Assembly: GCA_002838945.1 (NCBI GenBank) | Contig: PGXB01000005.1 | Span: 1-64,000 of the forward strand | Length of the DNA stretch: 64,000 nt | Reading direction: 5' to 3' | Source of the DNA: a candidate division Zixibacteria bacterium HGW-Zixibacteria-1 | GTDB lineage: Bacteria > Zixibacteria > MSB-5A5 > GN15 > PGXB01 | In this document: positions 34,576 to 41,671 of the stretch, one piece after another | How positions within the stretch are numbered: position 1 is the stretch's first letter | Layout of the letters: every line of letters starts with the position of its first letter | The notes under the pieces: model-generated | What the model saw: only the letters and a program-made list of their open reading frames with translations | Databases searched by the model: none | What the model was told of the DNA's origin: nothing | Position numbers and translations under genes: made by a program

Positions 34576-35430
34576 TTATTTAAGAAGCATCATTTTTCTG
34601 GTAATTGTATGTGCCTCAGCCGTGAGGCGATAGAAATAGACCCCGCTGGGCGATGAACTGCCATCCCAGGCCAGTTCGTGGCTCCCGGCCGGAAAGTCGC
34701 TGTCGGCCAGAACGTCGACGGACTGCCCGAGAAGATTAAATATCTCCAGTTTTACATGCTGATTGGCAGGCAGGTTGAAGGCAATAACCGTGGACGGATT
34801 AAAGGGGTTGGGATGGTTTTGCTCGAGGGCGAAGGTCCCCGGGAGCATATTATCCTCTTCATCATCGGCCGACAGTAATTTATCGATCCAGATTATCCCC
34901 GGTGTAAACAGCGGCCTGATCGCCGTGCCGCCGTCCTGCACGGTTCCCTCCAGCCGTCGCCACTTGTGAAAGGTTACCGAATACTGCTGGAACTGCACAT
35001 CTTCATTCAAAGAGTCAATAAAGGCCAGCGTTGACGGGGCATCGGCCGCTGCAGTAAAATAAAGAGAGGCAATTACGCCCGAGGCGGCCGTGATTTCCGG
35101 TGACGGATCTTCAACCGACGGTATATATGAAATATCGATCTGGTCGCCGTTGATATTAAAATATCCCTGCATCGATGGATCCTTGAGCGAACCGGCGAAA
35201 TCGACGTTGGTGCAGGTCAGGTGACTGTTGTCGAATTTCAACGGCACCCTGAGTGAGGTCAGGCCGGCATTGTTATTTTGGAGCATTATTTTAATAATAA
35301 ATGACTGTCCCGGTTTGACCGTCTTATTCTCGAAATATATTGAGCCGTTATAGACGGCGGGCATGGCCGACCCGGCGGCAAATATGCAAAAAAGTATCAC
35401 AAAAGTGACAATCGTTAACTTTTTTCTCAT
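34576..35430 (-). CDS. Secreted cohesin-like protein with C-terminal sorting domain
   Basis: 284 residues. Signal peptide of about 24 residues (FVILFCIFAAGSAMPA). Residues about 25-165 form a cohesin/carbohydrate-binding-like beta sandwich (GQSFIIKIMLQNNNAGLTSL, VPLKFDNSHLTC). The C-terminal 85 residues are a FlgD-like/type IX-type sorting domain: FALEQNHPNPFNPSTVI, LEIFNLLGQ, HELAWDGSSSPSGVYFYRL, ending MLLK. The start at ATG 35430 has GGGAG 6 nt upstream; the frame is open 15 codons further but without a ribosome site. It could be a cell-surface scaffold, and a dockerin protein is encoded 6 kb away. Confidence 0.85.
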   Translation of the reverse strand: MRKKLTIVTFVILFCIFAAGSAMPAVYNGSIYFENKTVKPGQSFIIKIMLQNNNAGLTSLRVPLKFDNSHLTCTNVDFAGSLKDPSMQGYFNINGDQIDISYIPSVEDPSPEITAASGVIASLYFTAAADAPSTLAFIDSLNEDVQFQQYSVTFHKWRRLEGTVQDGGTAIRPLFTPGIIWIDKLLSADDEEDNMLPGTFALEQNHPNPFNPSTVIAFNLPANQHVKLEIFNLLGQSVDVLADSDFPAGSHELAWDGSSSPSGVYFYRLTAEAHTITRKMMLLK

Positions 35431-35640
35431 AAGTAACTCCCTTCCGATCTGACACTTATCTAAGCCAAATGTCATTATTATCCAGCTTTATGAAGATTTT
35501 ATAATGATCTTCAAGGTTCATTTGCGCAAAGAAGATGCCGCCAAAGACCGAACCGGCGGTCAAAACCGCACGTGAATAAGTCTGTTCAACTTCTGAACAG
35601 CGTGGTCGGGGGCAATCGGTAAACTCGAGGGAAAGAGCAG

Positions 35641-36723
35641 TTATGATTTGCAGATTTTATTCGGGGCGGAAGCTGAAGATAAAATATTTTCTACTTCCGC
35701 GGCCTGGTCTGAAACACAGTTCAGACAGGTGGGCAGTGAGGCCCTCAGGTCACCCGTGTGGGCGTAGGTGATCCCGCGGCAAGCGCCGCGACATACCTGG
35801 AAATACTCGCATTGCCGGCAGTGCCCGGTTATTTCCCGGCGGGGGAAGGAAGAAATGGCAATCATCCGGGGATCATGCCACAAATCCATAAGGGATCGTT
35901 CCTTAATGTTGCCGACAACGAACTTATCGTCAAGCAACGAAGTGCATGGGTAAACACTCCCGTCGTGGGATAGATAAAAAAAACTGACCCCGGCTATGCA
36001 GGGATGGTAATAGTAATCGGGTGGAGTGGGCCCGAATCCGGGATCGAATAATACCAGGGGATCCTCCGACTCGATATATTTCTGCACCAGCGCTTTCAGG
36101 GCGGGAAGTTTCTTATTGAAAAGCAGGCGTTCCTGGACGAAATCCTTGCTGCCGTGACCCGATGGCACAAAACAGCAAAATCTGATCATTTTCACGCCCA
36201 GTGATCCGGCGAGCCGGATGAAATCTTCGGCGTCATTGATGTTTTCCTCACCCAGAAGCATCGCCATGTGAACTTTCATATCAAGTTTATTGCAGATTTT
36301 TATACCCTCGATAATTTTCTCAAAATCGCTTTCTTTGGCAAGTCGGATTTTGCGATTCCTGGCCGGCGTGGACCCATCCAGACTGATTTGTATGGAAGCA
36401 ACTCCGGCTTTTTTAAGGGACTTCGCCCGTTTTTCATCCAGAAGAATGCCGTTGGTCGTAATCCCCGACCGGATGTTTCCCGTTTCCCGTGCATAGGCAA
36501 TCAGATCTTCCAGATCGTCCCTGAGTAACGGCTCTCCGCCGGTCCAGCCAATCACCTTGACCCCCATCTCAACCATCTCATCGATAATACCGAAGCATTC
36601 GAGGGTGGACAGCTCATCGCGTGCGTTTCTTTTGGCCGAACTGTAACAATGGGGGCAGGAAAGATTACATCTGACGGTTATTCCCCATCCGGCAAGGTCC
36701 GGTCGGTGTTTTCTGATCTTCAT
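35641..36723 (-). CDS. Radical SAM/SPASM peptide maturase 1
   Basis: 360 residues. Radical SAM cluster motif CNLSCPHC near residue 19, SAM-binding TGGEPLLR, TTNGILL and ISLDGS. A SPASM domain for extra Fe-S clusters follows at about 255-345: CIAG, YPCTSLL, and CRQCEYFQVCRGACRG. The architecture is that of PqqE/MftC-like enzymes, which modify ribosomal peptides. Its start overlaps the stop of a 27-codon frame (ATGA), and four related peptide genes lie directly upstream, so those peptides are the probable substrates. It is the last gene of the cassette. Full-length and apparently intact. Confidence 0.92.
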   Translation of the reverse strand: MKIRKHRPDLAGWGITVRCNLSCPHCYSSAKRNARDELSTLECFGIIDEMVEMGVKVIGWTGGEPLLRDDLEDLIAYARETGNIRSGITTNGILLDEKRAKSLKKAGVASIQISLDGSTPARNRKIRLAKESDFEKIIEGIKICNKLDMKVHMAMLLGEENINDAEDFIRLAGSLGVKMIRFCCFVPSGHGSKDFVQERLLFNKKLPALKALVQKYIESEDPLVLFDPGFGPTPPDYYYHPCIAGVSFFYLSHDGSVYPCTSLLDDKFVVGNIKERSLMDLWHDPRMIAISSFPRREITGHCRQCEYFQVCRGACRGITYAHTGDLRASLPTCLNCVSDQAAEVENILSSASAPNKICKS

Positions 36724-36803
36724 TTTAATTCTGCAAAAATATGACTTCTTATTTCTATACGTGGGCCGGAATAAATCGGCGCACCATACAAATTGCTTTC
36801 CAT
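36720..36803 (-). CDS. Possible 27-residue peptide coupled to maturase 1
   Basis: Short frame MESNLYGAPIYSGPR...AELK whose stop overlaps the maturase start (ATGA). It begins 3 bp after, and in frame with, the stop of precursor D. There is no ribosome site, so translation would depend on termination at the peptide D stop. It may serve only to couple translation. Confidence 0.3.
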   Translation of the reverse strand: MESNLYGAPIYSGPRIEIRSHIFAELK

Positions 36804-36806
36804 CAA

Positions 36807-36908
36807 TTAAATTTCCGGCGGATCGATTGGCGGCAGGATTTCAAACAATCGGCGGTAGCAGGGGCAAGGGATCCGCTCGATATGTCTCGACTTCTCAATA
36901 AATTTCAT
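36807..36908 (-). CDS. Putative precursor peptide D (33 residues)
   Basis: Starts MKFIEKSRHIERI, core PCPCYRRLFEILPP, ends IDPPEI. It shares the MKxIEK start, the Cys-Pro-Cys motif and the LFxILPP segment with peptides A-C but carries a longer tail in place of the terminal Trp. GGAG lies 9 nt before the ATG. It is the copy closest to maturase 1. Confidence 0.72.
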   Translation of the reverse strand: MKFIEKSRHIERIPCPCYRRLFEILPPIDPPEI

Positions 36909-36939
36909 GGCTGTAACTCCATTCGTGTTAAAATGGTTC

Positions 36940-37032
36940 TTACGGCCAATGGACCGGACTGATTAAAAAGAGCTTGTCCAAACAGGGACATGGTTATTTT
37001 GCTTTGTCCTGCGGTTTCTCGATTATTCTCAT
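36940..37032 (-). pseudogene. Precursor peptide C, interrupted by a stop codon
   Basis: A GGAGG ribosome site and start MRIIEKPQDKAK match peptide A, then TAA (36996-36994) occurs where A has Lys13. The same frame continues PCPCLDKLFLISPVHWP to a TAA at 36942-36940, so one base change (AAA to TAA) would restore a full precursor. Most likely a recently inactivated copy; a 12-residue product could still be made. Confidence 0.75.
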
Positions 37033-37141
37033 CTTAAACCTCCATCGGTTGCCGGCCGTGCCACACAATCATTTCGGCGAAGAGTAAACCATGGTGCCAT
37101 TTTCTCGACAGCCCGTTAATGGTTTTAGTATTGTTCGGCCC

Positions 37142-37175
37142 GGAGAGGGCGCCGATTATGTCGGCGCGTCTCTCC
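37142..37175. other. Inter-peptide hairpin 2
   Basis: Stem GCGCCGA/TCGGCGC with loop TTATG, extended by GGAGAG/CTCTCC with a small bulge. It lies between peptides B and C. The matching hairpin between A and B has a compensating pair change, which supports a conserved structure. It is not followed by a T-run on the minus strand, so it is not a classic terminator. Confidence 0.6.
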
Positions 37176-37186
37176 CAAAAAAAGTC

Positions 37187-37273
37187 TTACCACGGGGGCA
37201 AAATAAGGAATAGTAATTTTATACAAATCTTTGGGTCCTTAGTTTTGTCCTTTGGTTTTTCAATCATTTTCAT
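37187..37273 (-). CDS. Putative precursor peptide B (28 residues)
   Basis: Starts MKMIEKPKDKTKD, continues PKICIK, ends LLFLILPPW. It aligns with peptide A without gaps: the first Cys of the CPC motif is Lys15, the second is kept as Cys17, and the last eight residues are identical to A. GGAGG lies 6 nt before the ATG. Confidence 0.75.
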   Translation of the reverse strand: MKMIEKPKDKTKDPKICIKLLFLILPPW

Positions 37274-37383
37274 CGTAAACCTCCATCGGTTTTCGGCTGT
37301 GCCGCGCATACATTTTGGCGGGGAGTAAATCCATGGTGCCGCAATCATAACAGCCCATTAAGGGTTTTAGTGTTGTCAAACCC

Positions 37384-37417
37384 GAAGAGGGCACCGATCA
37401 TGTCGGTGCACCTCTCC
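37384..37417. other. Inter-peptide hairpin 1
   Basis: Stem GCACCGA/TCGGTGC with loop TCATG, extended by GAAGAGG/CCTCTCC with one bulged A. It lies between peptides A and B; compared with hairpin 2 an A-T pair replaces a G-C pair. Confidence 0.6.
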
Positions 37418-37428
37418 GAATAATAATC

Positions 37429-37515
37429 TCACCAGGGGGGCAGGATTAAAAAGAGCCTATTTAAGCAGGGACAAGGCTTCTTCACACTGTCTTGAGGTTT
37501 CTCCAAGAACTTCAT
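37429..37515 (-). CDS. Putative precursor peptide A (28 residues)
   Basis: Starts MKFLEKPQDSVKK, then P14-C15-P16-C17, and ends LFLILPPW. The ATG overlaps the stop of maturase 2 (ATGA) and an AAGGAGG ribosome site sits 7 nt upstream inside the maturase gene, so translation is coupled. Size, hydrophobic Cys/Pro/Trp-rich C-terminus, charged N-terminus and repetition next to SPASM enzymes fit a leader-plus-core RiPP precursor. The cleavage point and modification are unknown. Confidence 0.78.
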   Translation of the reverse strand: MKFLEKPQDSVKKPCPCLNRLFLILPPW

Positions 37516-38840
37516 GCTTTCACCTCCTTACGCAGTTCACAAAGATGTCTGAGAGCCAGCATCTCCCTTAAGTTATATTTCCAGGAGACACAGGCCCCCC
37601 GTGCCTTATTGCCATCCCGAATATCATGATGCGGACATCCGCCCATGCAGATAGGCAGCATATTACATTCGGGACATTCTTCTTTGTCAAACGGATTAAA
37701 GGAAAGATACCTGTCAAGATTGACTTTTTGATGATCTTTCGGGACGCCCATTAAAATAGACCCGACCGAGTGTTCTTTCGCCTCGGCGATTTCTTCCCAG
37801 CATTTATAAAGAGTGCCGTCGGGTGCCACGACAAATGAATTCTCGGTATCGGCCCCGCAATGACCGCCGGCCGACAGCGACGGATACTCGATTTGATATA
37901 TGCCGTTATCGATCAGCCGCCGGTACATTTCGACCTGGCTGAGTGAAAACTCCTCGGTGCTGAGGCACTTATCATTCATGTCGGCACAGACACCTGCGGC
38001 CGAATTAACCTGGGCGAAATAGACTCTTACTTTATCGAGAGTGCCGCGCTTTTCGAGAATTTCCAGAACTTCATTGGCCAGTCCCTGATTATTCCTGTCA
38101 ACATTGATGCGAATCGTTATGCTCAAAATGTCCGAGGCCTCGGCAAGGTTCTCCACAATCCTGTCGAAAGTGCCACTTCCCCCCGGAAGTTTTCGCCGGG
38201 CATCATGAATCCGCGGCGGACCATCAAGGGTAACCTGCGCCGCCCGGATTCCGGCGTTTTTCAAACGAAGAGCATTTCGGCCGTCAAGCAAGTAGCCGTT
38301 GGTGATAATCGTTGAGGGTTGAAACTCGGTTTCATACTTTCGGGTCAGTTCCCCAAAACCTGCCTGGAGCCGTTCGATCGAATCCAGACAAAGGGTCGGC
38401 TCTCCGCCGAACCAGGTAATGTACAGCTTGTCGGCATCCTTGACCCGCTCATCGGAAAATCGAAGCAGGGCCTTCTCGGTCTCTTCACTCATGCGGCCGC
38501 CGCGGTGACTCTCGAAACAATAATCACAGCGGAAATTACAGGCCAGGGTCGGTGCGATGGTCAGCAAAAATATCGTCCGGTCATAACGCATCCGGGCACA
38601 TTCAGCTTTTAGAGCCGCCAGTTCATCGAGATCATCCTTAACAAGGTAGCCGCCCTCAATCAGATATCCATAGATTTGTTTTTCCTCTTCCGATTGAGGA
38701 GAGCCATGCCCGTTGAGGAGCTTTGTAACGAGATCTATTTTTTCCGATTCTATTTCGGCCAGAGCAGCCGTAGCGCTGTTGAATAGAAGTTTGGAGCCAT
38801 TTGAAGAATCAACGAAAAGATTATATCGTGACGGTTTCAT
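37512..38840 (-). CDS. Radical SAM/SPASM peptide maturase 2
   Basis: 442 residues. The N-terminal 90 residues have a layout like peptide-recognition regions of RiPP maturases (YNLFVDSSNGSKLLFNSATA). The radical SAM motif is CNFRCDYC at about residue 101, with WFGGEPTL, ITNGYLL and VTLDGP. The SPASM domain from about residue 330 has GHCGADTENSFVVAPDGTLYKC, CPECNMLPICMGGCPH and a final Cys in GACVSWK. It resembles the larger maturases (sactionine or thioether-forming and sulfatase-maturase types). First gene of the cassette, with a promoter at 38946-38974; its stop overlaps the start of precursor A. Confidence 0.93.
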   Translation of the reverse strand: MKPSRYNLFVDSSNGSKLLFNSATAALAEIESEKIDLVTKLLNGHGSPQSEEEKQIYGYLIEGGYLVKDDLDELAALKAECARMRYDRTIFLLTIAPTLACNFRCDYCFESHRGGRMSEETEKALLRFSDERVKDADKLYITWFGGEPTLCLDSIERLQAGFGELTRKYETEFQPSTIITNGYLLDGRNALRLKNAGIRAAQVTLDGPPRIHDARRKLPGGSGTFDRIVENLAEASDILSITIRINVDRNNQGLANEVLEILEKRGTLDKVRVYFAQVNSAAGVCADMNDKCLSTEEFSLSQVEMYRRLIDNGIYQIEYPSLSAGGHCGADTENSFVVAPDGTLYKCWEEIAEAKEHSVGSILMGVPKDHQKVNLDRYLSFNPFDKEECPECNMLPICMGGCPHHDIRDGNKARGACVSWKYNLREMLALRHLCELRKEVKA

Positions 38841-40873: not shown

Positions 40874-41671
40874 CTAACACTTCAAGGCCGGGCCGCTCTT
40901 ATAGAGATAATTAATATAATAAATAATATCCAGAATATTTGTGCCACAGTCACCGTTCGGATCAGAACCGCAGGGGGCAGTTATCGAGCCGCCATTATAT
41001 ATATAGTTAATCATCGCCACGACATCGAGCAGGTTTTCGTTATTGTCGCCATTATAATCTCCGCATATGCACGGTGCATTCTTCACCGGCCAGCAGTACG
41101 GCCCGCCGAATGACAGTGAAGGTTGTTCAAATAACCAATCATACATTCCATATGGAGATATGTTGGGGATGCTGCAGGAATCAATGCAGAAAACACCGCT
41201 GGCATTAAGGTAGGGATACTCAAAATTGATTCTATAAACAAATCGCGGCAATAATGGTGAGCCCGTAGGCATGCCGGTGGTACCGCTGCCGGTCCAGTTT
41301 ATGGTATCGGCACCCATTCCATCCCAGGCCGGTGCATAACCGACATCAGCCCGGGTCCAGAAGGCATTGCGGAAATTCCACCATGAGCCGCCATTCTCAA
41401 AGCCGTTCAACCCATAATATTCAATCACCTTCCATGAGTTGATATCACCGCTCATGTAGAAAGTCAATGGCAGGCTCATCGCCGTTCTGTTAAACCCGTC
41501 ACTGTTATCCATCATAACCCTGAAAGCGGTGCAACCGGGATTGACACTCGGCGTCCCGCCATCATACCAAAGGTCGGCCGGATCGACCTGCACGGTAATT
41601 GTCATGGAACTTGCCGACAAGGCACCGATACATAACGTCAGACAACACAGAAGAATTACTATGAATTTCAT
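40874..41671 (-). CDS. Secreted dockerin-type protein
   Basis: 265 residues. Signal peptide of about 20 residues (IVILLCCLTLCIGALSA). The central part is an unclassified aromatic-rich beta domain (about 25-200). The C-terminus carries two dockerin type I calcium loops: GDYNGDNNENLLDVVAMINY and DPNGDCGTNILDIIYYINY. Dockerins bind cohesins; the cohesin-like protein at 34576-35430 is a possible partner by type, not proven. AGGG ribosome site. No cellulase or other enzyme domain is seen. Confidence 0.85.
   Translation of the reverse strand: MKFIVILLCCLTLCIGALSASSMTITVQVDPADLWYDGGTPSVNPGCTAFRVMMDNSDGFNRTAMSLPLTFYMSGDINSWKVIEYYGLNGFENGGSWWNFRNAFWTRADVGYAPAWDGMGADTINWTGSGTTGMPTGSPLLPRFVYRINFEYPYLNASGVFCIDSCSIPNISPYGMYDWLFEQPSLSFGGPYCWPVKNAPCICGDYNGDNNENLLDVVAMINYIYNGGSITAPCGSDPNGDCGTNILDIIYYINYLYKSGPALKC

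Follow-up and report, generated by a model that had tools for sequence, protein, structure and literature searches.

What do two radical SAM/SPASM enzymes do with a handful of peptides of 28-33 residues encoded between them? The question is posed by a stretch of 64,000 nucleotides from the candidate division Zixibacteria bacterium HGW-Zixibacteria-1 (assembly GCA_002838945.1, contig PGXB01000005.1, positions 1 to 64,000; hereafter the window), in which a first-pass annotation had seen a putative cassette for a ribosomally synthesized and post-translationally modified peptide (RiPP). RiPP loci are generally recognized by a short precursor frame adjoining a modifying enzyme, by a conserved leader joined to a variable core, and by a RiPP recognition element in the enzyme. 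Here, we find all of these features at the locus, the last of them as a structural prediction, and propose, with a probability of roughly 0.85, that it is a minimal RiPP cassette, in which one enzyme (maturase 2) would act on a cysteine-bearing core under the guidance of the leader, while the other (maturase 1) would introduce a second change or serve as its partner.

All genes of the cassette lie on the minus strand, in the order maturase 2 (37512-38840, 442 aa), peptide A (MKFLEKPQDSVKKPCPCLNRLFLILPPW; 37429-37515, 28 aa), peptide B (MKMIEKPKDKTKDPKICIKLLFLILPPW; 37187-37273, 28 aa), the decayed peptide C (36940-37032), peptide D (MKFIEKSRHIERIPCPCYRRLFEILPPIDPPEI; 36807-36908, 33 aa) and maturase 1 (35641-36723, 360 aa). 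Both enzymes carry the CxxxCxxC motif and the full set of SPASM cysteines, and their identity, coordinates and order stand as first annotated. The stop of maturase 2 and the start of peptide A overlap as ATGA, the ATG of A covering the maturase 2 stop. A similar overlap had been claimed at the other end, but peptide D ends 83 bp short of maturase 1, and the ATGA overlap with maturase 1 belongs to another frame (36720-36806), which starts with TTG and is dissimilar to the peptides. Ribosome sites precede A (AGGAGG), B and C (GGAGG, as had been reported) and D (GGAG). Peptides A, B and C each lie in one copy of a tandemly repeated unit of ~241 bp. Peptide C, already suspected of being broken, is a pseudogene, with a TAA at codon 13 (36994-36996) and a tail decayed to LFLISPVHWP. 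The description of four homologous Cys-Pro-Cys peptides thus holds for A, D and the dead C, but not for B, which has PKIC in place of PCPC and a single cysteine.

Frames this short can arise by chance, and the first-pass annotation had staked its case on their persistence in relatives that keep both maturases. The organisms in which the nearest relatives of maturase 2 occur place the genome of the window among the Zixibacteria. We surveyed 132 genomes of this phylum, counting maturase 1 at E<1e-70, and found it in 19 of them, at 21 places. At 18 of the 21, maturase 2 or maturase 1 has a related short frame nearby that is preceded by a strong ribosome site, and at the other three the contigs are cut at or near the maturases. 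The same arrangement occurs in one Acidobacteria metagenome-assembled genome, where maturase 2, the frame MEILEEGMTDSRACNKYVPPHCVTVYLILPPYLIVSPY and maturase 1 follow one another in the order seen in the window. A peptide profile, of the kind that had been proposed as a check and built from 13 rows (window copies A, B and D included, C excluded), gave 16 matches at E<1e-11 across the 132 genomes, every one of them at maturase 2/maturase 1 loci. The four window copies score between E 8e-12 and 5e-16 (A 4.9e-16, B 3.2e-13, C 8.1e-12, D 2.0e-15). Four weaker matches (2e-7 to 6e-4) fall in one genus, on short contigs, and represent peptides built to the same plan; further matches in these genomes were at noise level only. 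Judging by this conservation, the short frames are real genes. Outside the phylum, maturase 1 was sought at E<1e-90: it was not found in 392 genomes on the Planctomycetota side, in a search that had no positive control, and among 396 genomes on the Acidobacteria side only the one already mentioned was recovered. The patterns used to look for relatives on viral contigs found none.

The frames are also constrained at the level of their products. In two sister genomes that share two of the peptides, 12 synonymous changes and no amino-acid change separate the peptides outside the start codon (dS 0.57, dN 0), a pattern with a chance of ~3e-9 of being all-synonymous; in the same comparison, the spacer between the peptides is 57% identical and maturase 2 DNA 78%. 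Within the window, peptides A and B differ with pN 0.31 and pS 0.93. The ratio of dN to dS is therefore far from the value near 1 that the first-pass annotation had named as evidence against its reading, and the substitutions show the peptides to be under purifying selection.

If the peptides are precursors, how are they built? Across 32 peptides the N-terminus is kept in the form M-K/R-x-I/L, with I, L, V or M at residue 4 in all 32 and proline at residue 7 in 20. At least two cysteines are present in 31 of the 32 (exactly two in 25), at changing spacing, and an ILPP-like stretch recurs in 25. The second half varies between PCPC-Y/L-xx-LF-x-ILPP, CPxxC...ILPP, longer multi-cysteine forms and IIC...IIC. 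Since the N-terminus is kept and the second half varies, the family has the pattern of a RiPP precursor with a conserved leader and a variable core. The core type tracks the maturase 2 tree, in which IIC cores fall in one supported clade and the long form in another branch. The leader would comprise the ~12 N-terminal residues (M-K/R-x-I/L-E-K-P...), and the core the half that bears the cysteines, the aromatic residues and ILPP. In agreement with the earlier failure to place the precursor in a known family, NCBIfam holds no precursor model that fits peptides of type I, the set found in the window, or type II, a related set in the phylum, and Pfam none that fits A, B or D.

The hairpins that follow the peptides raise a different possibility, namely that the frames encode small membrane peptides, or leader peptides with a regulatory role, in a maturase operon. 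Directly 3' of peptide A lies a predicted RNA hairpin on the minus strand (37380-37421, fold -31.7 kcal/mol, z -5.7), and another lies directly 3' of peptide B (37139-37178, -24.8 kcal/mol, z -3.4); the two have the same shape, and the spacer alignment shows stem bases that have changed in pairs. Over all loci, hairpins behind the peptides have a mean z of -2.76, whereas the mean behind other frames is -0.83 (p 8e-6), and z falls below -2 at 69% of 32 peptide sites compared with 20% of 137 other-frame sites. They are GC-rich and stand ~10-20 nt behind many peptide stops, alike in position though unlike in sequence; most have no U-tract, and one is a plain terminator. Rfam gave nothing credible for them. 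Shortness, a hydrophobic tail and a hairpin behind most copies would suit regulatory or membrane peptides. However, relative to the enzymes the frames may lie upstream, downstream, in between or elsewhere, and often in several copies, which argues against regulatory leaders; moreover, the cysteines are kept and the hydrophobic run is too short to span a membrane, so we regard this explanation as highly improbable. On the precursor reading, the several copies, the strong ribosome sites and the hairpin at most loci would together ensure that precursor is made in excess, with the hairpins possibly helping to keep the output of precursor above that of the enzymes.

The spacers that separate the copies deserve mention in their own right. 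Those before B (37274-37428) and before C (37033-37186) are 77% identical, even though synonymous sites between B and C are saturated (pS 0.885), which points to constrained or copied non-coding sequence; the spacers have no Rfam match. A consensus promoter scan of the window stayed at chance level. The weakly matching peptides of the one genus, in turn, are preceded by a promoter-like sequence of the TTGACA type and followed by a hairpin.

Maturase 2 is the better candidate for recognizing the leader. It matches the Pfam Radical_SAM family, and its cluster cysteines are invariant in the alignment. Its predicted structure (mean predicted local distance difference test score, pLDDT, 90.6) opens with three strands followed by three helices, and residues ~4-86 form a predicted RiPP recognition element that co-aligns with the N-termini of CteB and TigE, as the first-pass annotation had surmised when it suggested that this end of the protein might bind the leader. 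These two proteins are also the nearest full-length solved structures: the model aligns with CteB (5wgg) at Z 27.6 over residues 4-439 (407 residues, rmsd 4.5, 19% identity) and with TigE at Z 23.8. The N-terminal domain would accordingly be expected, on the strength of the model, to bind the leader, after which the enzyme would act on the core by radical SAM chemistry with its auxiliary Fe-S clusters. An extra invariant C-x6-C (C285, C292) sits between the radical SAM and the SPASM portions, within or next to an uncertain stretch of the model (283-288, pLDDT below 50).

The likeliest product would be one or two thioether links from cysteine, our first choice because cysteine (at least two) is the kept residue of the core and because the nearest full-length structure, CteB, points to a CteB-like kinship. 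Carbon-carbon or other links, such as a cyclophane, cyclopropylglycine, or epimerised or decarboxylated residues, would fit the same cassette, with the cysteines serving another role, for example metal binding. The conserved aromatic residue and ILPP beside the cysteines could accommodate such chemistry, as could peptide B with its one cysteine; SuiB, a fold neighbour of maturase 1, makes a carbon-carbon link, and TigE, a fold neighbour of maturase 2, is not known as a thioether enzyme. Nevertheless, the retention of at least two cysteines in nearly all peptides while their spacing changes, together with the proximity of CteB, makes this variant plausible but less likely.

Maturase 1 is a SuiB/PqqE-like SPASM enzyme. 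It matches Pfam Radical_SAM and SPASM, and its model (pLDDT 84.4) aligns with SuiB (5v1t, Z 26.5), CteB (Z 26.0) and PqqE (Z 23.7), as well as with anSME and SkfB. Distances among maturase 1 and maturase 2 pairs correlate (Mantel r 0.64, reached in 0 of 5000 shuffles). We suggest that it acts on the same precursor, where it would either add a further modification or be an indispensable partner of maturase 2. In a variant of this proposal, the peptide is changed by maturase 2 alone, and maturase 1 is an accessory subunit or an enzyme whose radical chemistry is dispensable. The predicted absence of an N-terminal recognition domain from maturase 1 would agree with that, as would relatives of maturase 2 in Planctomycetota and Acidobacteriota that adjoin their own peptides with no type-I maturase 1. 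There is precedent in thuricin CD, whose TrnC and TrnD form a complex in which only the radical activity of TrnC is strictly essential (PMC12093266). All cluster cysteines are, however, kept in the 19 of 19 aligned members of maturase 1, as fits an active enzyme, and we consider the variant tenable but the less probable form of the proposal.

Several observations weigh against the cassette reading as a whole. Peptide B, apparently intact, has one cysteine, and the peptides of the one genus with weaker matches come from contigs that show no maturase. The correlation of the two enzymes may partly reflect shared species history. No protease, exporter or immunity gene is common to the compared loci; the first-pass annotation had likewise seen no protease or transporter in the cassette, and since the two maturases are the only genes that the neighbourhoods widely have in common, this lack is a property of the system, and leader removal and export, if any, would be left to enzymes encoded outside it. 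Finally, maturase 1 scores best with heme-type enzymes, so its substrate could be something else: it might act on a tetrapyrrole or another small molecule and adjoin the RiPP genes through co-regulation only. AhbD heme b synthase (TIGR04545), NirJ2 and NirJ1 are among its best NCBIfam scores, but all of these are far below cut-off (179.9 bits against 500 for AhbD), the score with the mycofactocin maturase MftC (TIGR03962; 151 bits against a cut-off of 265) also falls short, and maturase 1 reaches no NCBIfam cut-off at all. Considering that it recurs with maturase 2 and the peptides and with no other common gene, and that its nearest folds are SuiB, anSME and CteB, we judge a small-molecule substrate unlikely.

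Around the loci, one group of three relatives is syntenic in general, and a few widespread families of surface proteins turn up repeatedly. In the window, the flanking genes (34576-35475 and 40874-41671) encode a cohesin-like protein, which bears a secretion sorting tail, and a dockerin protein; their relatives stand near a few other loci probably because such proteins are frequent in the phylum.

Another set of two enzymes, only distantly related (maturase 2 ~36% and maturase 1 ~28% identical to those of the window), is found on two contigs of the same genome and at loci elsewhere, with three pairs in this genome alone; its precursors lie upstream and have the form MIYLIDP...C..C...PLYGI. In Planctomycetota, Acidobacteriota and Krumholzibacteriota, the maturase 2 relatives that lack a type-I maturase 1 stand with divergent precursors (for example MKFIVKPT...CWKCSEDPAAC). 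At three Butyrivibrio loci, a maturase 2-like gene is followed by two radical SAM/SPASM genes in a row, and no precursor was found there with the filter used. Zixibacteria thus hold related, putatively leader-guided peptide systems of types I and II, and type III occurs in Planctomycetota, Acidobacteriota and Krumholzibacteriota; the enzymes of all three types reach no curated family cut-off among those tested. The window's set is a compact test case, with precursors of ~28-33 residues, two enzymes and no other common genes, so that the division of labour between two SPASM enzymes on one peptide becomes a practical question. More speculatively, it may represent a RiPP class of its own, whose core of ~15 residues, with two cysteines and an ILPP end, would be worked on by two different SPASM enzymes one after the other to yield an unprecedented bicyclic scaffold. 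Maintained in a phylum that has hardly any cultured members, if any, the product would serve inside the cell, as a cofactor or a signal, and would not be an antibiotic for export.

We found no published description of the cassette or of Zixibacteria radical SAM RiPPs, no paper naming Clo7bot or the TIGR numbers, and none joining Cys-Pro-Cys, radical SAM and precursor peptide, which is weak evidence, subscription literature lying outside the search.

Among curated families, maturase 2 comes closest to the Clo7bot maturase (TIGR04334), which it resembles over nearly its whole length and which is likewise paired with short cysteine-bearing peptides. Yet its 341 bits are far under the cut-off of 600, and the Clo7bot models describe neither the PCPC...ILPP core nor a second enzyme. 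The Clo7bot peptide model TIGR04333 (cut-off 31 bits) matched no window peptide, nothing at the cassette in a whole-genome search and no scanned type-I peptide; it gave one weak match, with a stop inside, in 20 genomes of other phyla, and a weak one, from the first residue, to an Acidobacteriota peptide of a type III set (E 0.005, 16.6 bits). The RiPP maturase TIGR04463 (309.9 bits, cut-off 525), CefB (NF038107, 219 bits) and the geopeptide maturases (TIGR04280, 186 bits) are SPASM enzymes of the same kind over most of the length of maturase 2, but it falls below all their cut-offs and the peptides match no precursor model. With CteB, the thioether maturase of SCIFF, maturase 2 shares the recognition domain and the radical SAM and SPASM folds in the predicted model; two conserved cysteines and a CteB-like enzyme are compatible with a sactipeptide or ranthipeptide, and no more. 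PqqE, SuiB and SkfB are near sequence or fold neighbours of maturase 1, at ~20% identity, whereas maturase 1 has no predicted N-terminal domain. With thuricin CD (TrnC and TrnD) and Ruminococcin C (RumMC1 and RumMC2), the cassette has in common a pair of radical SAM enzymes for ribosomal cysteine-bearing precursors (PMC12093266, PMC8188230). Those systems belong to antibiotic-producing Firmicutes, whereas the Zixibacteria loci have no common transporter or protease; as for an enzyme complex of the thuricin CD type, what is seen here is gene pairing and correlated distances alone. The peptides of the window belong to a real, apparently unnamed family, and the cassette that encodes them would operate in the manner of radical SAM RiPP systems with two enzymes.

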